Shown: piece after piece, positions 10,885 to 41,600 of the stretch
How positions within the stretch are numbered: the first letter of the stretch is position 1
How the letters are laid out: each line of letters begins with the position of its first letter
IMG/VR virus record: IMGVR_UViG_3300042691_003266
Span: 1-41,661 of that record
Length of the DNA: 41,661 bases
Reading direction: 5' to 3' (one strand)
DNA from: a virus
Program-made: the position numbers and the translations under genes
Notes under the pieces: model-generated
Database searches by the model: none
Told to the model about the DNA's origin: nothing
What the model saw: only the letters and a program-made list of their open reading frames with translations

Positions 10885-11519
10885 TGAGCAAGGAACAAAG
10901 CAAACGAGCTATTGAAAAGATCTATCCCGACTTCGATAGCCGATACGGAGTATGGGGATGGTGTTCGCTAGATAAAGCAGGATGTATTATCGACTGCATT
11001 GATGATATCTTTACACGAGTTAATGATCCAATTTGCGTAGAGATCGGCGTCTATGGCGGAAAGAGTGTCATTCCAGTAGCTCTAGAGCTTAAGCGAATGA
11101 ACTCTGGAAAGGTCTACGCGATCGATCCCTGGGATAACGGAGAAGCTACAAAGGGATATGATGGCGAGCATTACGAGTTCTGGACTAAGGTTAACATGCC
11201 TTGGATCTATGAAGTCTTTACTACTTTGATCGAAGAAAACGGTTGTTCTGAATATGTAGAGATCATTCGAAAGGCTAGCGATGATGCGCCTGTGATCTAT
11301 GATATCGACTTCCTGTACATCGATGGTCAACATACGGTACAAGCAATTCGTGACGTAGAAAAGTACGCGCGCCAAGTTAAACTCGGTGGTTACTGTATCG
11401 CTGACGATATTAACTGGGGAGATGTTTCTCTAGTTCCTGATGCTCTAAAAGCTATTGGCTTTGAAGAGCAGCGTTGGATCGACGGCGCGATCATCTTTAA
11501 GCGTACTTCTATTAAATAA
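10884..11519 (+). CDS. Class I SAM-dependent methyltransferase (Methyltransf_24-like), 211 aa
   Basis: Rossmann-fold methyltransferase. Motif I is 'CVEIGVYGGKS' (51-61); the acidic end of strand 2 is 'VYAIDPW' (77-83); 'FLYIDGQHT' (143-151) is the strand-4 motif typical of the Methyltransf_24 group, with D147 and H150. 'GGYCIADDINW' follows. The family often methylates sugars or small molecules. It is coupled to GapR by a 1-nt overlap and is the last plus-strand gene before the two-way terminator. The substrate is unknown; a link to the distant glycan cassette is possible. Confidence 0.85.
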   Translation: MSKEQSKRAIEKIYPDFDSRYGVWGWCSLDKAGCIIDCIDDIFTRVNDPICVEIGVYGGKSVIPVALELKRMNSGKVYAIDPWDNGEATKGYDGEHYEFWTKVNMPWIYEVFTTLIEENGCSEYVEIIRKASDDAPVIYDIDFLYIDGQHTVQAIRDVEKYARQVKLGGYCIADDINWGDVSLVPDALKAIGFEEQRWIDGAIIFKRTSIK

Positions 11520-14652: not shown

Positions 14653-14892
14653 TTAATTCTTATATGAAACTGGAGTGCATTTAATGGTGGTCGATCCTGC
14701 AATCGTATCTGTAGAAAGTTTTTCTAGAATTTCTATCGTCCCTTGCGGCATCGTGAACGTTGCTGTTGGATTCGTCGCACTAGTAACTGTGATGACTGAA
14801 TTTGCAGCCGCATAGATACGAACTAGTTTTGAGTCGTATACGGTGTTTGCAGATGTGAATGATAGTTCAGTGTTTAAAGCTTTAAGTATCAT
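14653..14892 (-). CDS. Small beta-rich virion-associated protein, 79 aa
   Basis: Not recognised. A Thr/Ser/Ala-rich beta protein with few charges (segments 'VRIYAAANSVITVTS', 'TATFTMPQGTIEILEK'). It occupies the place of T4 genes 67/68 but does not resemble acidic gp67. Composition suggests a head decoration or other structural protein. The start overlaps the stop of the 771-aa gene by 4 nt (ATGA), so it is co-expressed with it late in infection. Confidence 0.7.
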   Translation of the reverse strand: MILKALNTELSFTSANTVYDSKLVRIYAAANSVITVTSATNPTATFTMPQGTIEILEKLSTDTIAGSTTIKCTPVSYKN

Positions 14893-25762: not shown

Positions 25763-26509
25763 TTATATGGTATCTGCTGTTACAACGGTAGAGTCAGCAG
25801 TGATTTCGTTACTATCGGCGGTTACAGCATAATTAGTTGGTCTTGTGATAATCTCACTAAACGGATCTATCTCAGTGAAGTCAATAATATCATCGCCTTC
25901 TTCTTCAAAGAATACGTTCTTTGCGATTGGATCTTTTTCTAGTAGTTTATTAAGATTGTTAACTTCAAGATCTTCAGTGTTTAAAACATCGAAGTGTGTA
26001 TCTATATCTTCAATTCCGGTGTCGAATCTTTCGTTCGAGTATTCAAACAGTTCACACTTAAGATCAAATACTTGAAGAGCTCCGCTCTGATAGAAAACGC
26101 TTTCGTGCTCAACATGAGAGATCTCAAAGAATTTATTATTGAGAGGAAGATATATAAGGTCGCCTTCCTTCGGTCTTATGAGAGTAGTATTCAATCTAGT
26201 TGCGTATCTTTCAAAAGTTCTCACCGCAACAGTAAAAGTAACTTGGTCACGAATCTGAAGACCAAACTTACTAAGAAAGTCACCATCTCCCTGAAAACCG
26301 TCCACGCTCTTTACGTATACTTCCATTAAGTAAGCCGCATTAAAGATTGAAAGATCGTCTTCATTGAGTATCTGGTCGGTCGCTTCTAACTTTCGAGTAA
26401 CATAGTAAGTATCAACACCGTAGATCTGTATTGCTTCAATGACTAAGTCGTCAATGAGTTGCTGCTCATTGAAGTATCCATAGTTTTGAAAAAAGACGTT
26501 AGTCGCCAT
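25763..26509 (-). CDS. 14: Neck protein gp14, 248 aa
   Basis: Head-completion/neck protein. Length matches T4 gp14 (256 aa). The start 'NVFFQNYGYFNEQQLIDDLVIEAIQIYGVDTYYVTRK' and 'EGDLIYLPLNNKFFEISHVEHESVFYQSGALQVFDLKCELFEYS' regions mark the family. The C-terminus has a repeat-like 'TADSNEITADSTVVTADT' tail. It follows gp13 after 3 nt and shares its late promoter. Confidence 0.96.
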   Translation of the reverse strand: MATNVFFQNYGYFNEQQLIDDLVIEAIQIYGVDTYYVTRKLEATDQILNEDDLSIFNAAYLMEVYVKSVDGFQGDGDFLSKFGLQIRDQVTFTVAVRTFERYATRLNTTLIRPKEGDLIYLPLNNKFFEISHVEHESVFYQSGALQVFDLKCELFEYSNERFDTGIEDIDTHFDVLNTEDLEVNNLNKLLEKDPIAKNVFFEEEGDDIIDFTEIDPFSEIITRPTNYAVTADSNEITADSTVVTADTI

Positions 26510-26512
26510 TTA

Positions 26513-27256
26513 TCATCCAACGAAATTGTAAACGAGTGGTTGAAGTGAAGTCTTCGCATTTTCTTCCATCTCTTTGCGGTCTGCTTTTGCTTCCGATAGG
26601 ATCTGTTCGCCGTTGAACTGAACACCTCCGATAAGTTGCATGTTTGTAAACTTAGTTAGGTTTACACCCCACTGCTCGCGTATTAAGATAGACGCATAGT
26701 TCTGAAGAAAGCGATCGCTCCATACGTCGGAGTATGTGTTGCCATCAATAATGTCATATCCCTCTATAATGATAAACGACCCAGGATTCAATATGGCCTT
26801 ATTTACATCTACATATAAACGGTTTACATGGCGATTGTATCTTATGAGAGGGCGGCCTACAAGTATTTCTTGCAGGAACTGTAGGTGAGATAGAGCCATG
26901 TAGTAATGCTGAATGTTGTACCCAGTAATGTCTTCTAGGTTGTTCAAAACGAATTGGTATTGAACGTTGAAGAAGCCGGTACCGGTCGAGATAGAAGAGC
27001 TAAGATCAAAGATACGAGTGATACCGAGAATGTTTTGTGGTACTTCGATATATCCCTGATCTATCTCTTGTTGTGTTAGAGCATGCTTAAGATATATCAT
27101 CTGGCTACCATCATAGTGGTAGTCTCTCCAGAATGCTATTGCCTCGTCAATACGATCTTCTATCTGTTCATCAGAAACGTTGATCTGAATGACTGGCGCA
27201 CCGATCTTTCTAAGAACATAATCTTTGAATTCGCTTCTTGTTGAAGGACGTGCCAT
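26513..27256 (-). CDS. 13: Neck protein gp13, 247 aa
   Basis: Forms the ring that binds the portal and closes the filled head. Marks are the N-terminal 'SEFKDYVLRKIGAPVIQINVSDEQIEDRIDEAIAFWRDYHYDG' region and 'YDIIDGNTYSDVWSDRFLQNYASILIREQWGVNLTKF'. It is shorter than T4 gp13 (309 aa), as in other distant T4-like phages. A perfect late promoter lies 24 nt upstream and AGGGTGA serves as ribosome-binding site. It opens the continuous 13-to-23 morphogenesis run. Confidence 0.96.
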   Translation of the reverse strand: MARPSTRSEFKDYVLRKIGAPVIQINVSDEQIEDRIDEAIAFWRDYHYDGSQMIYLKHALTQQEIDQGYIEVPQNILGITRIFDLSSSISTGTGFFNVQYQFVLNNLEDITGYNIQHYYMALSHLQFLQEILVGRPLIRYNRHVNRLYVDVNKAILNPGSFIIIEGYDIIDGNTYSDVWSDRFLQNYASILIREQWGVNLTKFTNMQLIGGVQFNGEQILSEAKADRKEMEENAKTSLQPLVYNFVG

Positions 27257-27280: not shown

Positions 27281-27288
27281 TATTTATA
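27281..27288 (-). promoter_or_regulatory. Late promoter TATAAATA of gp13
   Basis: Exact late motif on the minus strand, 24 nt before the gp13 ATG, in the longest gene-free gap of the window (27257-27376). The rest of that gap holds an oppositely oriented sigma70-type promoter and nothing else that I can identify. Confidence 0.87.
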
Positions 27289-27314
27289 AAAGAAGATGAA
27301 CCACATTTTTTTGG

Positions 27315-27342
27315 TTGACATATGTGAAATAGCTGATATAAT
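27315..27342 (+). promoter_or_regulatory. Consensus sigma70 promoter pointing against the glycan cassette
   Basis: TTGACA (27315-27320), 16-nt spacer, TATAAT (27337-27342): perfect -35 and -10 boxes on the plus strand. Preceded by GG and followed by T, giving GGTTGACAT as in P1 and P3. No plus-strand gene with a ribosome-binding site follows, so the transcript would be antisense to the nucleotidyltransferase-cupin gene. Confidence 0.7.
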
Positions 27343-27376
27343 TAGATTTAACATCTATCAAGCCGGTAGTATATAC

Positions 27377-28123
27377 TTACTCGATGCGCTCGATATCTTC
27401 TTCGTAGCAGTTCTGTCCATACTGGATCTCAACAATCTTTAGTTCTTCAGAAGAATCGTTAATGAGTTGGTGCCAGTCAGAAACATATATGTTTACAAAG
27501 TCGCCTTTCTTTAAAGGCGACAACACTCCGTTTAGTTTGATAGCACCGGTACCATTTGTAACGTACCATAGTTCGTTTCTAAAACTATGTCTCTGAAGAC
27601 TGAGAGACTTTCCTGGCTCGACTATGAGTTCTTTTACTTTTGTAGAAGGACCGTCCGAGTGTAGGACTCGATAGTATCCCCACTTTCTTTCCGTCTTAGG
27701 TGTCTTCCACTCAGTAAGGATCTTACTGCTAGAATTCATCTTATGAGTTCCACCGACTCCAAACACAAACGATAGTCGGCTGTCTACGATACTCATTTCC
27801 GGAATATTGCTATCGGTTCTATCACCACCGTTCGCAAAAATGATTTCATCGTGTGGATACTTTCCTAGACACAGCTTAATCGCTTCGGACGCCCCGCCGT
27901 CACTATCGTCAAATATCATGACACTATCGACCATATGAAGGCTCTCAACGATCGCAACTCTTTCTGATAGACTCATGAATGGCTGACCCTTTTTACGAGT
28001 CAGCCATTCGTCACTATTTACTCCAACTATTAGAATATCTCCGAGTTCTTTTGCTTCATTAAAGTATGCAATATGACCGCTATGAAGGGGATCGAAACCA
28101 CCAGTTACAAGTACTATCTTCAT
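27377..28123 (-). CDS. Nucleotidyltransferase-cupin fusion, 248 aa
   Basis: N-terminal half (1-140) is a cytidylyltransferase-like domain: 'TGGFDPLHSGH' (7-17, HxGH) and the 'MSLSERVAIVESL' segment in place of the usual ISTSER motif. C-terminal half (about 150-245) is a cupin resembling the sugar-isomerase part of mannose-6-phosphate isomerase/GMP proteins ('PGKSLSLQRHSFRNELWYVTNGTGAI...GDFVNI...WHQLIN'). Together they suggest activation of a sugar phosphate to a CDP- or similar sugar and its isomerisation. AAGGA precedes the ATG. It is the last gene of the cassette. The exact sugar is unknown. Confidence 0.85.
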   Translation of the reverse strand: MKIVLVTGGFDPLHSGHIAYFNEAKELGDILIVGVNSDEWLTRKKGQPFMSLSERVAIVESLHMVDSVMIFDDSDGGASEAIKLCLGKYPHDEIIFANGGDRTDSNIPEMSIVDSRLSFVFGVGGTHKMNSSSKILTEWKTPKTERKWGYYRVLHSDGPSTKVKELIVEPGKSLSLQRHSFRNELWYVTNGTGAIKLNGVLSPLKKGDFVNIYVSDWHQLINDSSEELKIVEIQYGQNCYEEDIERIE

Positions 28124-28124
28124 T

Positions 28125-28856
28125 CTACATTCCTTTCAAATTTGCATATACCATAAACTGACCCTTATATGGGTTATTAATTCTCCACCACTCTTCATAG
28201 GCACGCAAAAAGTTGTTATCGAAAATTTGTTCTGTTACGTCTTTTCCATCTCTTTCATATACACGCAGATGTTCTGTTCCTCTTAAATCTAACAGGTAGT
28301 TATCTCTAAATTCTATAAAGTTCTCTATAGAATTTGGAACTCCGACTATGTGATATTCACCAGCTATGTTCTTAACTATTTTTTTGATCATAGAAGAATT
28401 TTCTTTAGTGAAGATAAAAGCTTCCCCGCCTTCGCAATCAAATTTTAAGAAATCTATCGTCTCTATGTTATAATCTTTTATTAACGTATCGAACCGAATA
28501 GTTGAAAACATACTGCCGGCGTGATGATAGATATAATCTGACCCCGGTTTGATTATGTTGTAGTCGGTATCTACTCCAGATATACCTTTATTTATCAGTG
28601 TACACGAAAATATTTCTAGATTTTTTTCCAGCGTTTTGAATACAATGTTTGATGGTTCTAAACAAAATGCGTGTTTAGGTTTAATATCCTTTAGAGAATA
28701 TATGAAAGAACCAACGTTTGCACCAATATCTACAACGACATCGATTTCTTTTATCTTATATAATAGTTCGTATGTTCTATCGATAAAATTTTCTTTAGTA
28801 AATAAGTTTGCATATTCTTTATCTGTTGGACCCCAATCAAAGTTTTCGTAATTCAT
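28125..28856 (-). CDS. FkbM-family methyltransferase A, 243 aa
   Basis: SAM-dependent O-methyltransferase of the FkbM group. Motif I 'VVDIGANVGSF' (41-51), 'CLEPSN' (65-70), and the FkbM signature 'IDFLKFDCEGGEAFIF' with the DxEGxE pattern. Such enzymes methylate sugars and natural products. The C-terminal 45 residues are variable. It sits between the GT17-oxygenase and nucleotidyltransferase genes with gaps of 2 and 1 nt. A second FkbM enzyme lies two genes upstream in the same unit; the two are clearly related but diverged. Confidence 0.88.
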   Translation of the reverse strand: MNYENFDWGPTDKEYANLFTKENFIDRTYELLYKIKEIDVVVDIGANVGSFIYSLKDIKPKHAFCLEPSNIVFKTLEKNLEIFSCTLINKGISGVDTDYNIIKPGSDYIYHHAGSMFSTIRFDTLIKDYNIETIDFLKFDCEGGEAFIFTKENSSMIKKIVKNIAGEYHIVGVPNSIENFIEFRDNYLLDLRGTEHLRVYERDGKDVTEQIFDNNFLRAYEEWWRINNPYKGQFMVYANLKGM

Positions 28857-28858
28857 CT

Positions 28859-30442
28859 TTACTCCGCGTCAAAAAAGAACATTTGCCACAAGCGAGAATT
28901 CTCGTTGTTATATCCGAAGTATCCGGATGCTGCGTGAATCATACCTGCGTCAAATATGACGAGTCTGTTATAGACATTTCCAACTACGTCGACCGGTTCA
29001 TATGGAGTTTTATCGAGAGTAGTGTGCCCAGAGAAGGTGCTCATGATCTCTGGATGAGAATTGTGACGAATACGTGTTGCCTTATGCGCGTACATTGAAG
29101 TACCAGTCTCGAATGGCGCGTCGGGTGTTAGGAATAACATACCAGCATATTTCTGATCGTCGCAGTGATAAACAAGAGCATCTCCTGCATAACATGTCTG
29201 GAACCTGCCATTCATACCATGTTGTTCCCATTTTGTAATCTTCATTCCCATGATCTTTTCAAATTCTTCCTTCAGGCCTGGGAATAGAAACTGTTTAAAA
29301 GTTCTATTTCCCATATATCCTTTTCCGAAGCCACCCTTATCGAATTCACGAGTTAGAGCATACTGTCTTACTTCATCTGGGTTATGATAGAAATCGTCTA
29401 CGATCCATACTCTCTTTTTATACGGGCTTATTAGAGAAGAAGGATTTATAACAGCCCTTTCAAATACATCTAAACTATCTTCTTTGACATCTGGCAGAAA
29501 GTAGTTCTTTAAGTACTCGCTCTCAAGAATTTCTTTTGGTAGCCCACTAATAGAGTACTTCTTTAAGACGTGATTTTTATTTCCAGAAGGCGGAGTAGAT
29601 CCTTCTTTCATTTCGTTCTCTGTTAAGAATGTCACGTATGTCTCGTCACGGTATGACTTTATCTCTTTAATGCTGTCTGTTTCATTTCCTCCTAACCACT
29701 CGAATGAGTCGTTATAATGGGCCCATACTTGAGACTTCAGGGCTCGCTTTTCAGGCCCACCCATCCAAGAGAAGTGCCATCCAAGATCCTGAATAGCAGC
29801 ACCGTTTTCCGTAATATAATGAATTGGAAACGGGTTATTTACATTTGAACGTATCTGCGCTGGTGTAGCCCTTTTAAGTTGAGCTTTCGTAGCAAGAAAC
29901 ATTGCGCCGGACCATTGAACCGGTGTGTTACTATCTCTGTGATAAAGACGAAGATCTGCTCTTCCTTCGAGATAAACGAGTGGAACCTTAATGATTATCT
30001 CTTGGTTTTCTCGGCAGACACGTGATAGATACGGAATTCCATCCGGCCGAATGATTTCATCAGCATCGCCGTGAATAAAGACAGTATCATCATCAAACGT
30101 GTCGAGGACTTTTAGGAGCGCGTCTTTCTGAAGGCGCTCACGAGCTCTTGCTCTTTGCGATTCAATCTTATCACGATTTCCATACGTGTTTTGAATATCA
30201 ATAGGAAGGATCTCCAACTTGTCGTCGTCCGGTATATCGTGTGCTATATAGATGATCTTATTTGGATCCATCTCAAGTCTGCCTGCGATCTCAGGAAACT
30301 GTCTTTCAACTTTATGACCAGCGTGAGTTTTATTTGACTCTGATATAACAAAATAATCTACATGATCCTTAAGTACTTCATATCTCAGCTTAAGTGTTTC
30401 TTCTCCGTATGGAGCAAAGAAAGGAAAGAAATCGACTATCAT
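28859..30442 (-). CDS. GT17-like glycosyltransferase fused to 2OG-Fe(II) oxygenase-like domain, 527 aa
   Basis: Residues 1-260 resemble family GT17 glycosyltransferases (start 'MIVDFFPFFAPYGEETLKLRYEVLKDHVDYFVISESNKTH'-type pattern) with the metal-binding 'HGDADE' (DxD at 126-128) and 'GWHFSWMGG' (221-229). Residues 345-527 resemble the DUF6445/2OG-Fe(II) oxygenase fold: H426-x-D428 ('YHCDDQ'), H503 ('MIHAASG') and R517 give the iron and 2-oxoglutarate set. I start at ATG 30442, since the longer frame begins with TTG and the AGAGG ribosome-binding site fits this ATG. It may add and oxidise a sugar, or hydroxylate the acceptor. Activity is inferred. Confidence 0.82.
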   Translation of the reverse strand: MIVDFFPFFAPYGEETLKLRYEVLKDHVDYFVISESNKTHAGHKVERQFPEIAGRLEMDPNKIIYIAHDIPDDDKLEILPIDIQNTYGNRDKIESQRARARERLQKDALLKVLDTFDDDTVFIHGDADEIIRPDGIPYLSRVCRENQEIIIKVPLVYLEGRADLRLYHRDSNTPVQWSGAMFLATKAQLKRATPAQIRSNVNNPFPIHYITENGAAIQDLGWHFSWMGGPEKRALKSQVWAHYNDSFEWLGGNETDSIKEIKSYRDETYVTFLTENEMKEGSTPPSGNKNHVLKKYSISGLPKEILESEYLKNYFLPDVKEDSLDVFERAVINPSSLISPYKKRVWIVDDFYHNPDEVRQYALTREFDKGGFGKGYMGNRTFKQFLFPGLKEEFEKIMGMKITKWEQHGMNGRFQTCYAGDALVYHCDDQKYAGMLFLTPDAPFETGTSMYAHKATRIRHNSHPEIMSTFSGHTTLDKTPYEPVDVVGNVYNRLVIFDAGMIHAASGYFGYNNENSRLWQMFFFDAE

Positions 30443-30464
30443 ATTATTTGTACCTCTCAAATTA

Positions 30465-31181
30465 TTATAATGACTTGTTGCAGATGTAGATCATCCAACA
30501 GCTTCCCCAACCGAGAGGCCACTTTGAATTCAAATATGCATCGTCATACATTTTCTGTTGTGAATCTTCCTGAAGATATTTTATCTTACTTGCATCAAAT
30601 TTTGATAAGAAGTTGTCTCTAAATTTTTTGAATAAAACTGGCGCATCTTCAAAGCAATCAAGATGCACTTCGACCGCAATGTGTTTAACATTATTTTTTA
30701 TGAATTCAAGATTTTCTTCTGACAAGATATCATATTCGGCTCCTTCGGCATCTATCTTAAGATAGTCTATATGCGTGATATCATATTCCTTTATGATATC
30801 TTTAAACGAACGAATAGGAACGGCCTTATCATATCCTTCGCCAAAAACATTTCTAGTATACATTGGGTCATTCCCTATAACGCAGTTAATAGGAACCAAT
30901 GGAGATTCTTTTTTATTTATGATATGTGGTGACGCATTGTGTATTACTGTTTTTATGAGTTTAGAATTTCCCTCGATAGAATACACCTTTTTGGCGCCGT
31001 TGTCCAGAGCATGACATGTGAACATTCCGTTACATGCACCTATGTCCACTACGATGTCGTTTGGTTGAACTTTATACCACCAATCGTAATCATTTCTTAT
31101 AAAGAATTCGTGATATAGCGTTGCTACAGTTTCTATAGAATCTATACCATCAAATGATATGTTGTCATTTAGACTATTCAT
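30465..31181 (-). CDS. FkbM-family methyltransferase B, 238 aa
   Basis: Second FkbM enzyme of the cassette. Motif I 'VVDIGACNGMF' (44-54), 'VYSIEGN' (66-72), and 'HIDYLKIDAEGAEYDIL' with the family DAEGAE signature. It is close in length to FkbM A but differs through most of the sequence, so it is not a recent duplication. The ATG overlaps the upstream stop by one base. It probably methylates a sugar hydroxyl on the same glycan at another position; that is inference. Confidence 0.88.
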   Translation of the reverse strand: MNSLNDNISFDGIDSIETVATLYHEFFIRNDYDWWYKVQPNDIVVDIGACNGMFTCHALDNGAKKVYSIEGNSKLIKTVIHNASPHIINKKESPLVPINCVIGNDPMYTRNVFGEGYDKAVPIRSFKDIIKEYDITHIDYLKIDAEGAEYDILSEENLEFIKNNVKHIAVEVHLDCFEDAPVLFKKFRDNFLSKFDASKIKYLQEDSQQKMYDDAYLNSKWPLGWGSCWMIYICNKSL

Positions 31182-32200
31182 TACGAAATTCTTTCTAGCA
31201 CTGTGAGACCATTGTTGTTTGTAAGAAACATCTTAAATCTCCAATTTTGATTTTCAATAAGAAACTCTATAATCGCAGGAAGGAGCCCTTGTGTAAGTTG
31301 TTTGTTGTCTCCACCTTCATTTTTTAGACCATATGTGTTCGTATCATGAAATGCGATGTACTTTCTTACTTTGTTAGCATGAAGAGATAGTTCTTTCTTT
31401 AGTTGTTCATATTCGTGCCATGTGTCTATAAACAAAAGATCTGTCTCCTCAATCTCGACATTAAGAACATCCGCTTCAATGAACTTTGTGTCTTTTCCAG
31501 CGGAACTAGCATTATTCATGAGTTCAACTACTTTTTGATCTGTAACGATGTCATAAGAAATTAGTTTTGCGTTAGCTCTCAAGAATGCCCTAGTACTAAC
31601 TCCAAACCTTACACCCATCTCTGTTATATGATTGCATTCTTTGGCGAGTTCGTATAGAACCGGCAAGTGTTCATGAATGTCACTAGGAGTCGTAGCAGCC
31701 GCTGCAAACTCTTTCTCTATCATGTGTTTGAAATCTTTTTGTGGTTGGTCTTCGGAGTATCTAATAGTACCAATCGAAGGAATGTACTTCTTCATTATAT
31801 CGTTCAAATTTATCATATCATATATCTCGCTCTTAGTGGTTTCTTCTTTTAGTCGAAGAAAGACTGGGTGCATTTCCTCAAATGCTTGATCTTCTCCAAT
31901 ATATTTATAAGTTAGCAGCATAAGATAAAACGCGTCTATTCTTGACGTATCTATTGACATAGCATGCTTTAAAATCTTATCTACGATTGCGAAGCTGTCA
32001 CCGTGCTCTATTAGAGACTTTGCGGCTGACACTAAAGAATTATAGACCAACTCGTTGTCGTCAGTTCTATCCGCAGCTCTTAAAAAGTATCCGCAGGCGG
32101 CAGAGTACTGTTTAAGTACTTCATACTCCTTTCCAAGATCGTAGTTGAACTGCGCGTTTTCTGGATCACTTACATAAGATTTAATCTTTTCTACAAGCAT
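31181..32200 (-). CDS. TPR-like domain plus SAM methyltransferase, 339 aa
   Basis: Residues 1-110 form helical repeats of TPR type ('AQFNYDLGKEYEVLKQYSAACGYFLRAADR' region). Residues about 170-339 form a class I methyltransferase related to the cephalosporin-hydroxylase/Methyltransf_24 group: 'HITEMGVRFGVSTRAFL' (motif I), 'LISYDIV', 'TDLLFIDTWHEYEQLKKEL' and 'YIAFHDTNTYG'. The N-terminal repeat is like that of the next gene upstream, suggesting the two proteins bind one another or a common partner. It overlaps FkbM B by one base. An exact TATAAATA inside the gene (31902-31909) is probably chance. Confidence 0.82.
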   Translation of the reverse strand: MLVEKIKSYVSDPENAQFNYDLGKEYEVLKQYSAACGYFLRAADRTDDNELVYNSLVSAAKSLIEHGDSFAIVDKILKHAMSIDTSRIDAFYLMLLTYKYIGEDQAFEEMHPVFLRLKEETTKSEIYDMINLNDIMKKYIPSIGTIRYSEDQPQKDFKHMIEKEFAAAATTPSDIHEHLPVLYELAKECNHITEMGVRFGVSTRAFLRANAKLISYDIVTDQKVVELMNNASSAGKDTKFIEADVLNVEIEETDLLFIDTWHEYEQLKKELSLHANKVRKYIAFHDTNTYGLKNEGGDNKQLTQGLLPAIIEFLIENQNWRFKMFLTNNNGLTVLERIS

Positions 32201-32201
32201 A

Positions 32202-33803
32202 TCAACCTCTCAAAACAAAATCGTCAAATACATTTTTTGGTATTCTTAGTATATATGATGTGTTATCCTCGTACCCATACGATATAAGCACATCGTTCTT
32301 ATGATAAGCAATACCTGAAACAAACTCAATAGATCCACTCATCATTGTAAAGTCACGAGTGGAACATACTATATTCCAGTCTCTGTCCCAAACTATAATT
32401 CTCTGAAAGTATCTTCTTCCGCTATCGTTGTTATTATACATGCATTCGTGAGTAATGCCAATGTAGTAGTCTTCGTTCCAAGGTATGATATGCGAACCAC
32501 CTCTTAGATCACGAGGGAACCGATACTTTTTAGACTCCTCAAGATGTACGGTGTTAGTCTTTAGAGTTTTAGTATCGAATGAAACTATCTGAGTTGGGTT
32601 GGTCCACTTCACCCATTGGAACGGCTTGTCTAGAATAGGCATCCAGTTCTTTTCACAGTAGGTGTCGTCGTTTCCCGGCGCTGGAATTGAAAACCGTTCT
32701 ACCTCAACCACGCCGTTCTTGGTTATCTCAATCTGTGAAAGATCCATCCTACCCTTACCTTCGAGTATATGATCCCTTCTTACTCCGCAGAGATACTTTT
32801 TACCTTCCCATTCTATGAGTCTTCCATCTTCCAACCCAATGTAGAACCAGTTAGGATCCTCATTAAGTTTCATATCAATTCTGTCCGCAGATATAACATT
32901 AAGACGATCGTCAAGTCTACATACAACGTTTTCGGACCTGATGTTAATATCACTATCAGGATAAAGATATTTTAAAGGCCCATCTTTATCTGGAAACTTA
33001 TTACTATAATAAAGAGTATAGTTAGTTTCTCTGAGATTTACAAAGACTCTTTCTTGACTGTCAACAAATACAGACGCGTTTGTTGTCGCCATTCCTTTTG
33101 ATACAGAGTGAGGTACAACAATAGGATGGATCGATCCGCCATTTGCTAATGCGTACTTTGCTAGACTAGATTGGTAAACATCTTTTAACGGAGTTTCGTT
33201 ATGATAGTATTGAGACCTATGATTTTCTTTTTTGATCATCATTAGATTTTTCATAGCAGCTTTCTGATGATGTCTAGGGGCATCACTGCTGTTTATAATA
33301 GAAAGAAGTATCTCTCTAGATTCCTCTATGAACCCGCTATGAAAACCAGCATGAGCTTTCTGAAGTAAGAGAGAATACTTTCCATCATATGTGGTTTTTC
33401 TTCTCAACGATTTTAAACTATCTAAGTCTGGAATGCTTAGCGCGGTAGACACGAGTGAATAGGCAGTAAACCACCTCTCGTCATTCGTTTCGCTGCTCTC
33501 AATGAACTTGCTTAGAATTAAATATGCTTCTGGACGCGTTGGCATATGAGATATCGCAAAGTTTAGAAGGCCCTTTGTTGAATATTTCCGTCTTCCCAAA
33601 GATTGCATGCATGTTGCTAATCTTATTAGACTCTCATAAGATTTATTTCTATCATCGAATCTTTCTGCCGAGCGTAAGTAATAAGACCCTGCCGATGAGT
33701 ACTGACCTAAATCCTCATAGTACGAACCGATCATAAAACTAACTTCTGGGTCACTAGGATTAAGAGCGAACATCGTGATCAACTGTTTTATTTCTTCCGT
33801 CAT
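32202..33803 (-). CDS. TPR-like domain plus GH130-like beta-propeller protein, 533 aa
   Basis: Residues 1-195 are helical repeats ('DPEVSFMIGSYYEDLGQYSSAGSYYLRSAERFDD' region), like the neighbouring TPR-methyltransferase. Residues 215-533 are a five-bladed-propeller-like domain related to GH130/COG2152 glycosidases: 'IGLEDGRLIEW', 'CGVRRD', 'YCEKNWMP', 'DLRGGSHII' and 'SGSIEFVSGIAYH'. It is a paralogue of the next protein upstream. In one landmark motif (EDGRL versus EDARL) it departs from its partner. Sugar phosphorolysis, hydrolysis or transfer could be the activity. I start at ATG 33803, which has AAGG 6 nt upstream and follows the previous stop by one base. Confidence 0.78.
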   Translation of the reverse strand: MTEEIKQLITMFALNPSDPEVSFMIGSYYEDLGQYSSAGSYYLRSAERFDDRNKSYESLIRLATCMQSLGRRKYSTKGLLNFAISHMPTRPEAYLILSKFIESSETNDERWFTAYSLVSTALSIPDLDSLKSLRRKTTYDGKYSLLLQKAHAGFHSGFIEESREILLSIINSSDAPRHHQKAAMKNLMMIKKENHRSQYYHNETPLKDVYQSSLAKYALANGGSIHPIVVPHSVSKGMATTNASVFVDSQERVFVNLRETNYTLYYSNKFPDKDGPLKYLYPDSDINIRSENVVCRLDDRLNVISADRIDMKLNEDPNWFYIGLEDGRLIEWEGKKYLCGVRRDHILEGKGRMDLSQIEITKNGVVEVERFSIPAPGNDDTYCEKNWMPILDKPFQWVKWTNPTQIVSFDTKTLKTNTVHLEESKKYRFPRDLRGGSHIIPWNEDYYIGITHECMYNNNDSGRRYFQRIIVWDRDWNIVCSTRDFTMMSGSIEFVSGIAYHKNDVLISYGYEDNTSYILRIPKNVFDDFVLRG

Positions 33804-33804
33804 A

Positions 33805-34869
33805 TCAAACCTTCGCATTATTTACAAATTTTTCAATAGTCGCATACGGCACTTCGAGTAGATAAGCGGCGTTATCTTGAAACCCAAACGTAATAAGTAT
33901 TCGTCCTTTATAATGGCACATTCCGCATGTAAATTCGGTATGACCACCCATGATAGTAAAGTCGTCAGAGAACTTCACAATGTTCCAATTCTTATCCCAT
34001 ACGATAAAGCGATGGCGATACACTCCGTCCTTTACCTTCTTTTCTCCCTTAAAAAGATCAACCTCGTGAGTTAACGCAATATAGTAATCACCAAAAGAAA
34101 TGACTTGTGAACCGCCTCTAGGTTCAGTCAATCCCTTTGGATTTCTATTAAACATTCGAGTGTCGCCTAAAAACACGGTTTCTGCCTTGGCTTTTTCTAT
34201 ATCAGCAAGAACTACTTCTGTCGGGTTACACCACTTAATGTACGTATAATCTTGATCTAGAACCGGCATCCAGTTCTTTTCACAATAAGATGTATCTTCG
34301 CCAGGAGCACCGATACGCGTGCGAGATACTTCTATTACTTCATTATCGAGAACCTCTATCTCTGATAATTCCATTCTTCCTTGGCCTGTCGTATTCGTAT
34401 CCCTACGAACTCCAGTCATGTAGAGTTTTTCGTTCCATTCAACAAGTCTTGCATCCTCAAGACCAACGAATTCCCATATCGGTTCTTTATCAAGTTTTGA
34501 AGTGTCTACGTGGTTTACTCGAGTGATGTTATAATTTCCATCCAACTCACAATAAAAATTCTCTGTGCGCAACTTCATATCATCTTCTGGGTGAAGATAT
34601 GTAAGAGGTCCCCATGGATGGATAAACTTCTTTTTCTCAGAATGATAAAAGAAATAGTTAGTGCATCTTACATTAACTATTAGTTTTCCTTTATGAACAA
34701 GAATTGACGGGTTCATAAGCCCGGTGCCGCCGGTGAGCTTTGATGGAACGATCAGTGGATGAATACTTCCACCATCTGTTAACGCTTGTTGTGCTAGAGT
34801 TGTAGAAGTTTCGTATCTATACGTTTGTTCTACTTGATGCGCGTCTTTGACGTGTTCAAAAAATGACAT
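33805..34869 (-). CDS. GH130-like beta-propeller protein, 354 aa
   Basis: Single-domain paralogue of the preceding entry: 'GGSIHPLIVPSKLTGGTGLMNPSI', 'FVGLEDARLVEW', 'TGVRRDTNTTGQGRMELSEIEV', 'YCEKNWMPV', 'TEPRGGSQVI' and 'GGHTEFTCGMCHYKGRILITFGFQDNAAYLLEV'. The layout matches the five-bladed propeller of GH130/COG2152 enzymes (mannoside phosphorylases and relatives), but acidic catalytic residues cannot be set with confidence. It is the first gene of the cassette. A sigma70-like element and a late-promoter variant lie upstream. Confidence 0.78.
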   Translation of the reverse strand: MSFFEHVKDAHQVEQTYRYETSTTLAQQALTDGGSIHPLIVPSKLTGGTGLMNPSILVHKGKLIVNVRCTNYFFYHSEKKKFIHPWGPLTYLHPEDDMKLRTENFYCELDGNYNITRVNHVDTSKLDKEPIWEFVGLEDARLVEWNEKLYMTGVRRDTNTTGQGRMELSEIEVLDNEVIEVSRTRIGAPGEDTSYCEKNWMPVLDQDYTYIKWCNPTEVVLADIEKAKAETVFLGDTRMFNRNPKGLTEPRGGSQVISFGDYYIALTHEVDLFKGEKKVKDGVYRHRFIVWDKNWNIVKFSDDFTIMGGHTEFTCGMCHYKGRILITFGFQDNAAYLLEVPYATIEKFVNNAKV

Positions 34870-34943: not shown

Positions 34944-35309
34944 TTAAATCCAACTACCGATAGCAAATACAATCACGCTCGTAGCAGTAGTGTTCGCGCG
35001 AGAAATATACACGTTTACGGCCGTTGTAGTAGCACCAGATGAAGACCAACCAGTAACTGTGGTTCCTGGAACAGTAGAGTTAACAGAAACATGAACATAT
35101 GGTGCTGCAGCAAATGCTATCGGAAAAGTCCATGCCCCTAGTGTCGGTGTGTTTGACGCGGACGGAGTTATTGAAAAGGTATGCCAGCACATCTGAGTTC
35201 CGCCAGCAAGACGCACGTAAAAACCATTAGCGTTGTTTCCAGTCTCTACTTCTACCGCCGGACCCGGCGGCAAATAAGCTGAAATCAAATCTGTTGCTAA
35301 GACTACCAT
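34944..35309 (-). CDS. Tail fibre tip-like protein, 121 aa
   Basis: Beta-rich protein whose 'GFYVRLAGGTQMCWHTFSITP...LGAWTFPIAFAAAPYVHVSVN' pattern matches the C-terminal tip domain of many phage tail fibres (gp53-like C-terminal domain), where Gly-Thr, Trp and 'FP.AF...P' positions are conserved. Here the domain is a separate gene with a short N-terminal leader, so it may assemble onto the 969-aa protein encoded 11 nt upstream in the transcript. A role in receptor binding is likely by family. The C-terminus ends in an aromatic 'GSWI', common for trimeric tips. Confidence 0.8.
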   Translation of the reverse strand: MVVLATDLISAYLPPGPAVEVETGNNANGFYVRLAGGTQMCWHTFSITPSASNTPTLGAWTFPIAFAAAPYVHVSVNSTVPGTTVTGWSSSGATTTAVNVYISRANTTATSVIVFAIGSWI

Positions 35310-35320
35310 ATTTTAATCCC

Positions 35321-38230
35321 TTATGCTTGAGCTTCTGACCAACGAAGAAGAACGTGACCCGTGCCAGTACCAGCGGTTAAACGAATATTAATCGCAAGAA
35401 TGTCAGAGCCGTCTGGATATTGGAAATCTCCTCCTAGTGGAGCACCAGTCAATTCCTTCAGTTCCGTAAGTTCTAGTCTATCGTTCACTGCGCCAGATGC
35501 GGTAGAAGGAGCAGCAAACGCAAACACCTGTTCACCTGGTACCGCAACGGTGCCCGCACTATAAGTCACAGAAGTCGCAACCTGCGCGAGACTTGGCTGG
35601 CCACCCGCAGATTCTACGTTTAATGGAAGCCACGTCGCTGAAGAGAAATTCTTAGGATTCAACACGCCTTCAACAATACAAGCACCAGGGTTTGTACCAC
35701 CTGAAACAGATACACCGACTGCTTGTAGAAGAAGCTGAGAACGATTCAATAGATCTCTTACTCCAAGACCACCAACCTGACTGTTTGAAACGGATGGAGC
35801 AAGACGAATGAGGAACGCTGTTTGGTTCGCGGTTGTAAGACTCAAACCGACTCTCTGATAGTTAAAGATGTATCCACGGTCCTTAGTAAATCCACCGTCC
35901 ATGATTAACGCAGAACCCCAGTGACTTAGAGTTGGAGAACACGTATTACTTATTAGAATTACACCAGTGCCGGCCGTATGGCTTGCAGCAGCCGCAGCAG
36001 TAAATCCAGTCGAAGTACCTGCTTGCCACTGAGTGAGTGTTGCTGCACGAGTCGCACCGGTAAAGTTACCAGCTCCACTTGCCGCTGACTTACCTGTGTA
36101 ACTGATAATTTCGTTATCTATGTACAATGTTCCTGCTGTTGGAAAGTGTTCCAGTGCTGCAACTGGAATTGTTGTAACTGAGCTGTCGATCGTAGAAGTT
36201 AGAGATGTTACTGGAGTATCGTTTTCGATAGAATAGCGAACCGGGAGGTTACCAGATCTCATATAAGCTTCATCATTCACGTTGTTATTTTTGATACGAT
36301 GCACGAAAACCCAGTTACCATCACTACCACGAACCATAAAATCAACAAAGCCAGCGCCGTACCACGAATACTGTAGACCGACCATGTGCATCTTACTTAG
36401 GTTAATATTAAACCCGCTTGGCCCGGTTCCGTCAATTGTATCAATGTTGAACTGCGACTGCCTAATTCTTGTTTCTTGAATTAAGTTACCCTTTACACCA
36501 GAAGCATTGATACCTCTATAATCAGGAGACACAAATATAGAAGTATCACTCACTACTTGTATAACATGGTGAGTCATACCGCGGATAACGATTCTATCGC
36601 CTGCTTTTAATTGCTGAGTAAATCTTGTATTTACGCCAGTCACCGCATTTGAGTTTTGCGTAACAGATAGAGTTCCACTTAATTGTGCAGTAGAATTTCT
36701 TTTTACTACAGATAAAATACTACCATCATATTCCCAGAATAATCCATTTTGTTCGTCAAACAACCCAGCTCTTACAGCTGCGCCATCCCATGTTATTACA
36801 TACACCTTTGGCGTGATATTTAACACTGCAGTAGTTGCACCGAGTACACTGGTCGCTAATACTGTAAACTGATAGTCGCTTACGATAGATGCTACTGTAT
36901 ATGTGCCATTATACCCAGAAGTTGTCGATCCTGCTATTTCTATAACTGCGCCGATCTGTAAACCATGATCAATGTCATCAGTTGTAACAGTAATCGTAGA
37001 ACCGACGGTGGTTCCGGAAGCAGTTATACTCCGAATATCATAGTTTGGTCTAAATAACGTTCCAGTCGACCAAAGAAAACCTTTACCTGATTGATAACGA
37101 AAATATCTTTTACTCTGACGAGCAACTGTTGCGCCATATGTTGGAGTTTTAGTTGAAAGAATAACTCCGCCGTCCTGTGGTCTGTGAACAATCGTAGAAT
37201 TTGTAAACGCATATAAAGTAACGGTCGCTGGAGACACAACAACAGCGCCACCTCGTGCAGTATATGTTAATGATGTTAAACTAGGAACACTCGTAACAAC
37301 AAACGGCCCAGAAGCAAGCGCAGCCTGAGTACCAGATGCAACGATAGAGTGGATAGCAGTACCAGGAATTAATCCGTGTGGGTTGGTAAAGTTTAAAGTA
37401 ATTACTGACGGGTTAGCACCATTGCTCGTTGCTGATGCTACTGGTATCGAAGCGCCTGAATAGATTGCTCCACGCTTTAGTGTGGTAGCATCTGTTAGTA
37501 ATGATTGTCCATTGGTTCCAACTACACCCCTTGCAAAATATGTTAGCGTGCTAGTGTTAGGTACACCCACTGTGTTAACAATAAATGTTCCGTCAGCTCT
37601 ACTAAATCCTGCAATTCCAGAGTTTAGAGCTGAAATATTAATCGCTTGTCCCGCAGCGATACCGTGCGCGACAGACGTAGTGACTGTAATTAAACTATTT
37701 GTTGAAGCACCATCTGTAGTAATAGCAGTTACAACTAAGTCAACACCCGGTAATTCATAAGCGGATGGATAGCCGCGAACAGTTCCATAACCTGCCCATT
37801 TTGTCGGCTGTAGACCATATTCAAAGTCAGCATCGATGAGTGATTCGGGATTTGATACGCGCATTCTTTCGATAGCATCAGTACCAAAACTCCAAGGTCT
37901 TATAGTAGAGGCAGCGTTTTCGTTACCGTAAACAAAAATTTGAAGAGAATCACTAGCACTCTGACCAGTAGTGCTTACTCCCAATGTTATCGTTGTGAAC
38001 CCATCTTCTCGCTGTGTGATAGTAGGAAAGTTAGTTGCGTCGTTTGCGGCAGTAAACGTTGCTGTAGTACCACCGTATGTAGAGTTACCAAATGTGTACA
38101 GGATAATATTATCTGTAACGTTAGTAATTAGCAGAAGCTGATCTAAAGTATATCTTCCAGGTATTTTTATTGTGCCAACGTTAGCACCGCCAGGAGAAAA
38201 AACGTAATCTCTTATAATCTTCTTACCCAT
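35321..38230 (-). CDS. Large beta-rich virion structural protein, 969 aa
   Basis: Resembles the large structural/adsorption proteins of distant T4-like phages. The N-terminal 130 residues ('MGKKIIRDYVFSPGGANVGTIKI...', 'TIRPWSFGTDAIERMRVSNPESL') are typical of that group. Three tandem modules (about 180-235, 275-328, 400-455) share the pattern 'TTxxxHGLxxGxxIxI...NGTFxVxxV..FTYxxxG'. Later parts contain 'SQFNIDTIDGTGPSGFNINLSKMHMVGLQYSWYGAGFVDFMVRG' -type conserved sequence. It ends with 'GTGHVLLRWSEAQA'. Very few Cys and low charge fit an extracellular fibre or baseplate plate. It lies between a fibre tip gene and a fibre domain gene. Confidence 0.82.
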   Translation of the reverse strand: MGKKIIRDYVFSPGGANVGTIKIPGRYTLDQLLLITNVTDNIILYTFGNSTYGGTTATFTAANDATNFPTITQREDGFTTITLGVSTTGQSASDSLQIFVYGNENAASTIRPWSFGTDAIERMRVSNPESLIDADFEYGLQPTKWAGYGTVRGYPSAYELPGVDLVVTAITTDGASTNSLITVTTSVAHGIAAGQAINISALNSGIAGFSRADGTFIVNTVGVPNTSTLTYFARGVVGTNGQSLLTDATTLKRGAIYSGASIPVASATSNGANPSVITLNFTNPHGLIPGTAIHSIVASGTQAALASGPFVVTSVPSLTSLTYTARGGAVVVSPATVTLYAFTNSTIVHRPQDGGVILSTKTPTYGATVARQSKRYFRYQSGKGFLWSTGTLFRPNYDIRSITASGTTVGSTITVTTDDIDHGLQIGAVIEIAGSTTSGYNGTYTVASIVSDYQFTVLATSVLGATTAVLNITPKVYVITWDGAAVRAGLFDEQNGLFWEYDGSILSVVKRNSTAQLSGTLSVTQNSNAVTGVNTRFTQQLKAGDRIVIRGMTHHVIQVVSDTSIFVSPDYRGINASGVKGNLIQETRIRQSQFNIDTIDGTGPSGFNINLSKMHMVGLQYSWYGAGFVDFMVRGSDGNWVFVHRIKNNNVNDEAYMRSGNLPVRYSIENDTPVTSLTSTIDSSVTTIPVAALEHFPTAGTLYIDNEIISYTGKSAASGAGNFTGATRAATLTQWQAGTSTGFTAAAAASHTAGTGVILISNTCSPTLSHWGSALIMDGGFTKDRGYIFNYQRVGLSLTTANQTAFLIRLAPSVSNSQVGGLGVRDLLNRSQLLLQAVGVSVSGGTNPGACIVEGVLNPKNFSSATWLPLNVESAGGQPSLAQVATSVTYSAGTVAVPGEQVFAFAAPSTASGAVNDRLELTELKELTGAPLGGDFQYPDGSDILAINIRLTAGTGTGHVLLRWSEAQA

Positions 38231-38240
38231 AATTTTTCCT

Positions 38241-38627
38241 TTAGAATCCTAATGCTATAGCGAAAGCTGCAGCTTCATCGCTAGAGCCTCTCGCACCAAT
38301 ATTTGAAATAAATTGCCATGTAGTGCCGTCATAAACAAACTCTACGGTTGTTTGTGGTATGTTAACAGACAGTGTATCATTTATGCCTTCGATAGTCGCG
38401 CCGTTAAAGTTAACTAGCAAGTTATTTATTAGCCAACTTCCACCGTCGGTAATCTGCACGGCATGCCCAGGAGAAGGTGAAAATGGCATAGTCACCGTAA
38501 AGGACCCGGCCGACGTATCAGCAATGAGTTTATCACCATTCAGCGCCGTGTAGTTACTTGTTATTTTTACCCAGGATTTAACAACACCAACGTTAGGAGA
38601 AATAGCATTTTTTAGTGATATTGGCAT
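38241..38627 (-). CDS. Small fibre-domain protein, 128 aa
   Basis: About 90 residues (19-112) form a beta-sandwich-like domain that is clearly paralogous to a domain in the collagen-like fibre encoded next door: both read 'SW(V/I)...NYTA..GD(K/R)(L/I)...T(S/A)G.(F/S)T(V/I)T(M/L)P', '.IEGI.D', and 'VEF(V/A)YDGTTW'. Here the domain stands alone and ends in 'AAAFAIALGF'. It probably sits at the fibre or caps it. Its stop is 11 nt from the 969-aa gene, and its start overlaps the collagen-like gene stop by one base. Confidence 0.75.
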   Translation of the reverse strand: MPISLKNAISPNVGVVKSWVKITSNYTALNGDKLIADTSAGSFTVTMPFSPSPGHAVQITDGGSWLINNLLVNFNGATIEGINDTLSVNIPQTTVEFVYDGTTWQFISNIGARGSSDEAAAFAIALGF

Positions 38628-41600
38628 TAGTTATCTCTCTTTATGTTTTCTACGTCAGCTTTTAGTTTCTTAACTGCTTCAATCAAGATTGCAATAAGTG
38701 GAGTATATGTAACTGTCTTTAAACCACTTCCGTTTGTTTTTACAAGCTCTGGCATGATCTTTTCTAGTTCTTGCGCAATCACACCGTAGCTCTTTGTCTT
38801 GTTATCTTTCCAATCGAAACTATACGTATTTATTTGTTCTAGAATATCAAAGCTGTTATCGATAGACTTAAAGTTTTCTTTAAATGTTACGTCTGAAAGT
38901 GAGTTAAAGTTAGTTGCCGACAGATCTCCGGTCGAAGGATTGAAATATAGTCTAGTCGTAGAAACTTCTGCGAGTTGATTTGAACCAGCGGCTGTTACAA
39001 ACACCGGGAAAACTGTATCGTCATCTGATACGTCAACCGCGTTGATCGTAGTAGATGGGCCGGTAGGACCTTGTATACCCTGTGAGCCGGTTGTACCTTG
39101 CGCTCCTTGAAGACCAATCGCAGTAAATATTTCCCAAGTTGTACCGTCATAAGCAAACTCTACAGAAAAGCCTTTAACGTCCATTGTAATATCATCAGCT
39201 ATGCCTTCGATAGTGCTTCCGTTTCTTGCGACCGTTAGATTTATAGCTGACCAATCGTTAGCGTCAGCGATTACAACGAACGCTCCTGTGGCGGGTGTAG
39301 CTGGGAGTGTAATTGTAAATGTTCCGCCGGCCGTGTTCGTGAGTATTCTATCACCAGAAACCGCAGTGTAATTGGTAGTTCTTAAGATCCAACTAGTAGA
39401 TCCACCTGAAATACCTTGTGCACCAGTCCCAGACGTTCCTTGAGTTCCGGTAGTTCCTTGAATACCTTGCGATCCAGTCGTACCTTGAAGACCTTGCGAT
39501 CCAGTAGCACCTTGCGTTCCTGTTGTTCCTTGGGTACCGGTTGTTCCTTGCGTTCCTGTAGTTCCCTGAGTTCCAGTCGTGCCTTGTGTACCGGTAGTAC
39601 CCTGAGTTCCAGTAATTCCTTGAATACCTTGCGATCCAGTAGTTCCTTGGGTACCGGTTGTTCCTTGTGTACCGATTGTTCCTTGAGTTCCGGTAGTTCC
39701 TTGAATACCTTGCGATCCAGTAGTTCCTTGGGTACCGGTTGTTCCTTGGGTACCGGTTGTTCCTTGTGTACCAGTTGTACCTTGTGTACCAGTTGTACCT
39801 TGTGTACCAGTTGCCCCCTGAGTTCCCTGCTCACCCTGAAGACCCTGAGTTCCTTGTGTACCTTGAAGACCCTGAGTTCCCTGTGTTCCCTGAAGACCCT
39901 GAGTTCCCTGCTCACCCTGAAGACCCTGAGTTCCCTGCTCACCTTGAAGACCCTGAGTTCCCTGTGTTCCCTGAAGACCTTGAGATCCTGTAGTTCCCTG
40001 AGTTCCTGTAGTTCCCTGAGTTCCAGTCGTACCTTGTGTTCCTGTAGTTCCCTGTGTTCCCTGAAGACCTTGAGATCCTGTAGTTCCCTGTGTTCCCTGA
40101 AGACCTTGAGATCCAGTTGTACCTTGCGCACCGGTAGTACCTTGAATACCAGTTGTACCTTGTGTTCCCTGCTCACCCTGAAGTCCTTGAGTTCCTTGAG
40201 ATCCAGTCGTACCTTGAGATCCAGTTGTACCTTGCGTTCCCTGAATACCTTGAGATCCTGTAGTTCCCTGAGTTCCAGTAGTACCTTGAGATCCAGTAGT
40301 ACCTTGAGTTCCTTGAATACCTTGTTCACCCTGAGTTCCTTGTGATCCCTGAAGACCTTGAGATCCAGTAGTTCCTTGAACTCCGGTAGTACCTTGAATA
40401 CCTTGTGTTCCAGTAGTACCTTGGGTACCAATCGTTCCCTGAATACCTTGAGTTCCGGTAGTACCCTGAGTTCCAGTTGTACCTTGAGTTCCCTGAAGAC
40501 CTTGAGTTCCGGTAGTACCCTGAGTTCCTTGGAGGCCTTGAGATCCAGTAGTACCTTGAGATCCAGTAGTACCTTGAGTTCCTTGAATACCTTGTTCACC
40601 CTGAGTTCCTTGTGATCCCTGAAGACCTTGAGATCCAGTAGTTCCTTGAACTCCCTGAGTTCCTGTTGTTCCTTGTGATCCAGTCGTGCCTTGAGTTCCC
40701 TGAAGACCTTGAGCACCGTCTAATCCGTCTACAGCAGCCGTACCTTGAGATCCTTGAAGACCTTGCGATCCGGTTGTACCCTGAGCTCCCTGTAAATTAG
40801 TTGGATCTCCAACCCACGTACCGCTTGAGTTTATTACAGGTCCTATACTTTGTATTGTAACTCCACTTACTATAATATTCGCATCTGGATTAATAGAAAA
40901 CTCAACACCATTGAGTTCTAATCCAGCGCCTGCTTTGTAAATCTGTGAAGAGCTTATCTGTGAGAAGTTTATGCCAGTGCTTCCAAATGTAATGACTCCT
41001 TCTGTGGTCAGTACATAGAGTTCGCCGGCTCCGGTGTTACCTTCTAGGACGTAAAACGCGTCGCCTCTACCTATACTTCCAGAATCGCTTGGGCTGTAAG
41101 AATCTGTATCGGTTGAACGAGTAAGAACCCAATCAGTATTTGCAGAACCAGTATCTGTGACTGTATACACGCCGTTATGAGCCGTGTTAGCTTGTTGATA
41201 TAAAAGAACACGGTTGTCAGTACTTAGCGTAATTCCATCTATAATAAGACCTAGCTGAGTTCCGCCATTCGTTAATGTAGCGCCAACTCCTGATATTCCG
41301 TTATCATAAATAGCATTAAGAGAGATTGGTGACTCTACTCTAACTGGGTCGTGATAATGTATAGCCGCAGATACTAGTGTATCTACATACTGTTTTGTGA
41401 CGGCTTGTAGATTACCAGATGGATCTTGTGCAAGAGTTAAGAAACCACCGGTCATCGTGGTGCTAACATCGGATCTTACGAATTGAAGACTATCCAATCC
41501 GTCTAGAGTTGCAGCATCTCCTGCGGTAGATCCTTGTATACCTTGTATACCAAAATTACCTTGAAGACCTTGATCTCCCTGCAGACCCTGAGTTCCCTGC

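Follow-up and report, generated by a model that had tools for sequence, protein, structure and literature searches.

A recurrent propeller and TPR gene cassette of glycan-modification type beside the tail-fibre genes of an aquatic T4-like phage

Introduction

Pelagimyophages and cyanomyophages carry a variable region, the host recognition cluster, between their fibre genes and gp14/gp13; it holds fibre and sugar genes, GT8 and others among the latter, and has been read as modifying the O-chain of host lipopolysaccharide (LPS) (PMC7029224). Here we analyze a cassette of seven genes in this same variable place, with fibre genes to one side and gp14/gp13 to the other, at 27377-34869 on the minus strand of a T4-like aquatic phage fragment of 41,661 bases, IMG/VR record IMGVR_UViG_3300042691_003266 (the window, meaning the whole stretch of DNA that was analyzed). 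The cassette encodes two beta-propellers, TPR-like regions, a glycosyltransferase fused to an oxygenase, FkbM and MT24 methyltransferases, and a sugar-supply protein. We conclude that it is a real, functional and widespread glycan-type modification module, late, probably protein-directed and probably for fibres.

Parts of the cassette resemble other systems. Mimivirus L230, in which a glycosyltransferase and a hydroxylase act on a collagen-like virion protein, is a precedent (PMC9614988). GH130 mannoside phosphorylases and mannosidases, together with the GT108 mannosyltransferase-phosphorylases of Leishmania, share a five-bladed propeller and a catalytic Glu-Asp motif with the first cassette protein, PROP. 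Mycobacteriophage virions (Che8 and relatives) are glycosylated (Freeman et al. 2023, cited in PMC11256854). According to that secondary account, the glycosyltransferases are phage encoded, as in the cassette, and decorate virion proteins, but the glycans are on capsids and the enzymes are different. Both the locus position and virion glycosylation by phages are thus already known. For the PROP + TPR core, the network of domain fusions and, in phages, the LH3-like architecture, the literature searched appears to hold no description. To our knowledge, no oxygenase or propeller takes part in mycobacteriophage virion glycosylation.

For the host recognition cluster, the accessible text describes none of the PROP + TPR core, the fusions or the late promoter (PMC7029224). 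No description of the recurrent PROP + TPR module and nothing matching phage cassettes of the FkbM/TPR/fibre type was found in the literature searched. A preliminary description of this DNA had stated that the make-up of the block matches no glycan system known to its author. This needs qualifying, as the locus is a known host recognition cluster and the glycosyltransferase-oxygenase is like LH3 and L230.

Results

PROP belongs to a virus-specific, near virus-only family. It is encoded in at least 599 IMG/VR stretches, in 2 of 50,697 phage records, both of cultured Synechococcus phages (DSL-LC02 and S-SCSM2R), and in five genome contigs. A bacterial origin was considered for the last group and rejected, since the genome-contig matches look like phage DNA: contig L246 holds gp13- and terminase-like phage genes, and fibre-like genes are present on L245. 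L246, binned as Rhodobacteraceae, combines gp13, terminase, sheath and PROP genes and represents phage DNA in a bacterial bin.

The 242 loci examined fall into 87 PROP groups at 90% identity. In 84/84 testable clusters, a TPR protein is encoded among the five genes that follow PROP, and in 66 it is immediately next. When the search was begun from the GT17-like and oxygenase domains, PROP was also present in 61 of 66 loci of at least 9 kb. Genes for FkbM and MT24 methyltransferases, GT17-like glycosyltransferases, DUF6445 oxygenases and nucleotidyltransferase-cupin proteins are variably present around the PROP + TPR core, and otherwise unassigned genes within cassettes are mostly of GT2 (17/43) and GT25 (6/43) types. 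The domains occur in more than 20 fusion arrangements, including GT17-oxygenase (17), TPR-oxygenase (10) and PROP-FkbM (7 distinct), as well as PROP-oxygenase, PROP-GT17, TPR-PROP, TPR-FkbM, TPR-MT24 and GT17-FkbM-oxygenase. This variable presence and fusion in many combinations suggest that the cassette domains act as one system. PROP is found in 13 of 14 records picked by portal similarity, indicating that the module is close to core in that clade. At five loci (L130, L132, L133, L135 and L136), PROP-TPR pairs are preceded by the same small genes (~90, 83, 124 and 208 amino acids [aa]) and no recognizable fibre adjoins PROP; this neighbourhood may reveal another acceptor.

Window proteins were annotated with Pfam, PHROGs and NCBIfam (Table 1). 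The open reading frame (ORF) list contains seven consecutive, tightly packed minus-strand ORFs, as first reported. At the junctions, neighbours overlap by as much as 14 nt or are separated by up to 4 nt. For the third ORF, encoding the GT17-oxygenase protein, the ORF list gives a TTG start; the ATG at 30442, preceded by AGAGG, is likelier and would give a gap of 22 nt. The placement between fibre and neck genes, all in one direction, is borne out by the flanks, a gp53-like tip and fibres on one side and gp13/gp14 on the other, where T4-type tail and head genes (terminase, sheath) continue. The portal shares 52-53% identity with those of Stenotrophomonas phage DLP6 and Sinorhizobium phages and 48-49% with those of cyanophages, leaving a cyanophage identity of the window unsupported. 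The earlier domain calls stand for all seven genes, with the qualification that "GH130-like" holds for the fold and not at the level of Pfam.

The AlphaFold2 model of PROP, built from a 42-row alignment (pLDDT 85.7, pTM 0.89), has the five-bladed propeller fold of GH130 and GT108. Structural comparison with VIA-align pairs it with the GH130 mannoside phosphorylase 5ay9 (Z 24.1, root mean square deviation [rmsd] 3.3, 283 residues), the mannoside synthase Uhgb_MS (Z 21.6) and Leishmania MPT-2/MPT-4 of GT108 (6q4x/6q50; Z ~18). By sequence alone, the family is not reached. PROP stays below the Pfam GH130 gathering cut-off (19.8 bits vs 26), the PF04041 profile has no match in the window at 1e-3, and no relevant match to PROP was obtained among PDB sequences with phmmer or with a profile; GH130 is matched at E < 0.1 by 20 of 42 family members. 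With hhalign, no significant full alignment to two GH130 proteins was obtained, only a C-terminal stretch in which D332 is paired with a GH130 "D". These differences in sequence, together with an anabolic-looking operon, set PROP apart from GH130 and GT108.

Active-site conservation within the family is strict. Glu138 and Asp139 of an E-D-x-R motif are invariant in alignments of 42 and 45 sequences, D332 is likewise invariant, and the second propeller, in TPR-PROP, retains the conserved residues of the family (row 45 of alignment A1). In a pairing taken from the Pfam region and from motifs read by eye, VGLEDARL of PROP corresponds to GG[CV]EDPR of GH130, that is, to E141-D142 of BT3780. The Asp of this motif is the proposed catalytic acid of GH130 enzymes (BT3780 Asp142, BF0772 Asp131, UhgbMP Asp104; PMC4599007). 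The base glutamates of the BT3780 hydrolase, E227 and E268, have no counterpart in PROP by eye, and the invariant Arg251 sits near the position of one of them, which favours phosphorylase or transferase chemistry. We consider PROP, on its predicted fold, a putative mannosyl- (or other glycosyl-) transferase/phosphorylase.

Could the propellers instead degrade glycans? As glycosidases in or near the virion, they would trim host glycans at entry or release, and the rest of the cassette would be unrelated cargo. Beta-mannosidases do exist within GH130 (PMC4599007), and PROP adjoins fibre genes. The missing base glutamates argue against hydrolysis, as does the constant pairing or fusion of PROP with methyltransferases, TPR and GT17. 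Giant-virus proteins are among the closest viral structures to PROP, some of them joined in one chain to fucosyl-, pyruvyl- and LicD-type transferases, so that the relatives of PROP point to synthesis rather than degradation. We therefore regard a glycosidase role as improbable.

The GT17-oxygenase protein has the architecture of human LH3 (PLOD3) and L230, with a GT-A domain at the N terminus and a 2-oxoglutarate (2OG)-Fe(II) oxygenase at the C terminus of one chain. The DxD of the former and the HxD...H...R of the latter are conserved. In a Foldseek search with its AlphaFold2 model (pLDDT 87.8), human LH3, which is both a glycosyltransferase and a lysyl hydroxylase of collagen, took ranks 1-7 (601-618 columns) and COLGALT1 rank 15. 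The cassette protein differs from LH3 and L230 in that its glycosyltransferase domain is GT17-like, not GT25-like, and its oxygenase is of the DUF6445 type, nearest OGFOD1 and PHD2; the cassette also adds propellers and methyltransferases. VIA-align places the oxygenase half closest to the protein-acting enzymes OGFOD1 (Z 14.5), PHD2 and P4H (Z 12.6-14.5), with a few small-molecule oxygenases also among the matches.

Two FkbM genes and a TPR-MT24 gene encode the methyltransferases; the match of TPR-MT24 to PF13578 (23.8 bits) is just under the Pfam cut-off. In many TPR proteins of cassettes, the C-terminal part is an FkbM- or MT24-like methyltransferase, and cousins L032 and L266 carry the same TPR-PROP fusion as the window. 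TPR regions fused to such different chemistries suggest a common protein acceptor or scaffold. Both FkbM genes are absent from the closest cousins (L032, L266, L267 and L287; 88% portal identity) and have the lowest GC content in the cassette (FkbM A 0.32, FkbM B 0.35). Hence, the pair look like recent gains that would alter the final glycan. In these four cousins the cassette adjoins a collagen-like fibre and lacks both FkbM genes, making them natural pairs with the window for the effect of methylation. The nucleotidyltransferase-cupin gene directly adjoins gp13 on its upstream side in many relatives, with conserved motifs. Relative to a cousin, the ratio of nonsynonymous to synonymous substitution rates (dN/dS) is 0.04-0.09 for four cassette genes, like that of gp13-gp20, indicating purifying selection; a fifth compared gene, that of the GT17-oxygenase, is saturated at silent sites.

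T4-like late promoters have the form TATAAATA/NATAAATA (PMC2984593). The core ATAAATA precedes PROP, as it does gp13, gp18, gp19, gp21, gp23 and a 771-aa ORF, in agreement with the late-type placement proposed earlier. On the minus strand, 7 of 14 ATAAATA sites are followed by a start no more than 80 nt downstream, compared to 6% expected, a contrast that AT-rich gaps inflate somewhat. In relatives, the core occurs at most 100 nt upstream of PROP in 21 of 80 cases vs 7% in shuffles. A late promoter special to PROP was rejected: 26% of PROP genes have the core compared to 33% of other spaced genes, meaning that PROP behaves like a late gene. As judged from this core, the glycosyltransferases of the cassette would be coexpressed with virion genes.

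A third possibility is that such enzymes act neither on protein nor on surface glycan but on the DNA of the phage or on a small molecule. Glycosyltransferases of T4-like phages act on hydroxymethylcytosine, a point in favour of this possibility. The placement is late and fibre linked, the cassette has no base-modifying enzyme, and its oxygenase resembles protein hydroxylases, all of which make it very improbable here.

What, then, is the acceptor? In 15 of 80 clusters, a collagen-like gene immediately precedes PROP, compared to a share of 2.3% for collagen-like genes among other genes, and single tail-fibre PHROGs account for up to 17 of 75 genes upstream of PROP and for at most 2-3 of 72 controls. 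In cousins L266, L267 and L287, the neighbour of PROP is itself the collagen-like gene. In the window, the collagen run of the fibre is rich in Thr and Gln, and this fibre is a plausible candidate substrate. BclA of the Bacillus exosporium likewise has a Thr-rich collagen-like stalk with O-methylated sugars (cited in PMC9614988), in analogy only, being a bacterial spore protein served by different enzymes.

Several observations weigh against fibre modification of the collagen type. The run in the window has neither Lys nor Pro at its 290 X/Y positions; classical hydroxylysine or hydroxyproline chemistry is therefore impossible there, and the Lys in Gly-X-Y repeats on which LH3 and L230 act is missing. 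A collagen run is absent from 5 of 29 PROP contigs and also from G052, G055 and G056, contigs that may be incomplete, so that collagen cannot be the sole acceptor. In the isolate DSL-LC02, cassette and fibres are encoded on opposite strands. The LH3 match of the GT17-oxygenase has a TM score of 0.24 and an rmsd of ~16 A, which limits the likeness to domain type and order, with no rigid superposition of the whole. Enrichment of Thr in PROP-adjacent collagens, strong in a first count (P value of 8e-5), is weak without relatives (0.015-0.04, uncorrected) and is not used as support. Collagen as an obligate acceptor was rejected, given PROP on contigs without a run. Moreover, when loci were collected by collagen first, PROP lay nearby in only 27 of 75, and many of these belong to a single clade.

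These caveats, together with the published reading of the locus, keep host O-chain modification as the main rival. The enzymes would change LPS O-chain or capsule sugars and thereby block superinfection or the rebinding of released virions. FkbM enzymes frequently methylate exported polysaccharide, and LPS synthesis typically involves GT2/GT25 and HldE-like genes. The locus corresponds to the variable host recognition cluster, whose glycosyltransferases were read as O-chain modifiers (PMC7029224). Against this, none of the seven cassette proteins has a membrane segment or signal (top Kyte-Doolittle 19-residue mean, 1.11), and none is an integral-membrane transferase or flippase of gtr-type O-antigen/LPS modification or a lipid-carrier enzyme. 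TPR and protein-hydroxylase-like domains fused to sugar enzymes point to a protein acceptor, and a late promoter with fibre adjacency comes late for exclusion. We rate host-surface modification as a serious contender, if a rather unlikely one.

Decoration of the virion is thus favoured by the adjoining fibre genes, by the TPR and protein-hydroxylase-like domains and by the lack of membrane segments. On balance, with somewhat better than even confidence, we interpret the cassette as a late-expressed protein-modification module whose acceptor is most likely the tail fibres made alongside it. The preliminary description had left virion decoration and host-surface alteration side by side, both in preference to early DNA modification; the late placement agrees with it, and of its two options the first is preferred and the second is the rival.

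TABLE 1 Cassette genes, flanking genes and late-promoter motifs in the window
Feature	Position	Strand	Basis
PROP, first cassette gene, 354-aa five-bladed beta-propeller, GH130/GT108 fold	33805..34869	-	AlphaFold2 model, VIA-align, weak Pfam GH130
TPR-PROP, N-terminal TPR-like region and second propeller	32202..33818	-	Alignment row, profile architecture
TPR-MT24, TPR-like region and S-adenosylmethionine-dependent methyltransferase	31181..32200	-	Pfam PF13578
FkbM-family methyltransferase B	30465..31181	-	PF05050 7e-13; TIGR01444 above cut-off
GT17-like glycosyltransferase (N) and 2OG-Fe(II) oxygenase (C, DUF6445/phrog_1644)	28859..30460	-	PF04724, PF20043 above cut-offs
FkbM-family methyltransferase A	28125..28856	-	PF05050 1e-7; TIGR01444 above cut-off
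Nucleotidyltransferase (HldE-C/TagD-like, HSGH motif) and PMI/ManC-type cupin	27377..28123	-	PF01467 7e-15, PF01050 3e-19, phrog_7878
gp53-like fibre tip, next gene upstream of PROP, candidate acceptor	34944..35309	-	phrog_2712, 6e-18
Virion structural protein, candidate acceptor	35321..38230	-	phrog_5838
Collagen-like tail fibre, candidate acceptor	38627..41497	-	145 unbroken Gly-X-Y triplets
gp13-like neck protein (Ad2), 3' flank	26513..27256	-	Domain match
gp14-like neck protein (Hc2), 3' flank	25763..26509	-	Domain match
Late-promoter core ATAAATA (NATAAATA-type), 51 nt upstream of PROP start codon	34920..34926	-	Motif from PMC2984593
gp13 late promoter TATAAATA, 25 nt upstream of gp13 start	27281..27288	-	Motif match

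Other features of the window stand apart from the cassette. The 771-aa ORF (14889-17204, minus strand) lies between gp21 and gp20, with its late-promoter core 35 nt upstream; it has no Pfam match and matches only PHROGs of unknown function. In the gap between gp13 and the nucleotidyltransferase-cupin gene, a perfect extended sigma70 promoter (TTGACA-16-TATAAT with TG; 27315-27342, plus strand) faces antisense into the latter gene, beside the gp13 late promoter (27281-27288, minus strand). It is possible that this promoter drives an early antisense RNA or a 48-aa ORF (27296-27442); Rfam gave no match at this gap. A GT4-type glycosyltransferase is encoded at 597-1550 (plus strand), and a stand-alone MT24/CmcI-like methyltransferase at 10884-11519 (plus strand) is a neighbour of the major head gene, which is on the other strand.

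Discussion

In the mechanism that we propose for fibre modification, the nucleotidyltransferase-cupin protein would help to make an activated sugar, and the GT17-like GT-A domain with its fused 2OG oxygenase would act on a protein substrate by hydroxylation, glycosylation or both. The two GH130/GT108-type propellers may add a residue, or transfer it from a sugar phosphate or nucleotide sugar, the residue probably being beta-linked and mannose-type, and the FkbM and MT24 enzymes would serve as O-methyltransferases for the glycan. The shared TPR-like domains may hold the enzymes on a common acceptor or on one another. The acceptor would most likely be a tail-fibre or adhesin protein that the adjoining genes produce at the same time, and the first candidate is the Thr-rich collagen-like fibre. 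The mature virion would bear methylated sugars on its fibres, and its stability, adsorption or recognition as a particle could change.

A bolder proposal, which we hold to be doubtful, is that a widespread, near phage-only system, with a GH130/GT108-like propeller and a TPR-methyltransferase as its core and an LH3-like glycosyltransferase-hydroxylase besides, is responsible for hydroxylation, glycosylation and O-methylation of tail fibres, both collagen-like and other. Just as tentative is the idea that this fibre system is the prokaryotic-virus counterpart of animal collagen modification, with different enzymes and acting on Thr-rich repeats.

When sugar genes are met in aquatic T4-like phages, they are usually assigned to host LPS modification or taken for metabolic cargo. 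The interpretation offered here suggests a function for the DUF6445 or "minor coat protein" oxygenase and for a propeller family common to giant viruses, and the two cultured Synechococcus phages make the module testable. If the fibres are decorated, the receptor-binding proteins of many environmental phages would be glycoproteins, which bears on the prediction of host range from sequence.

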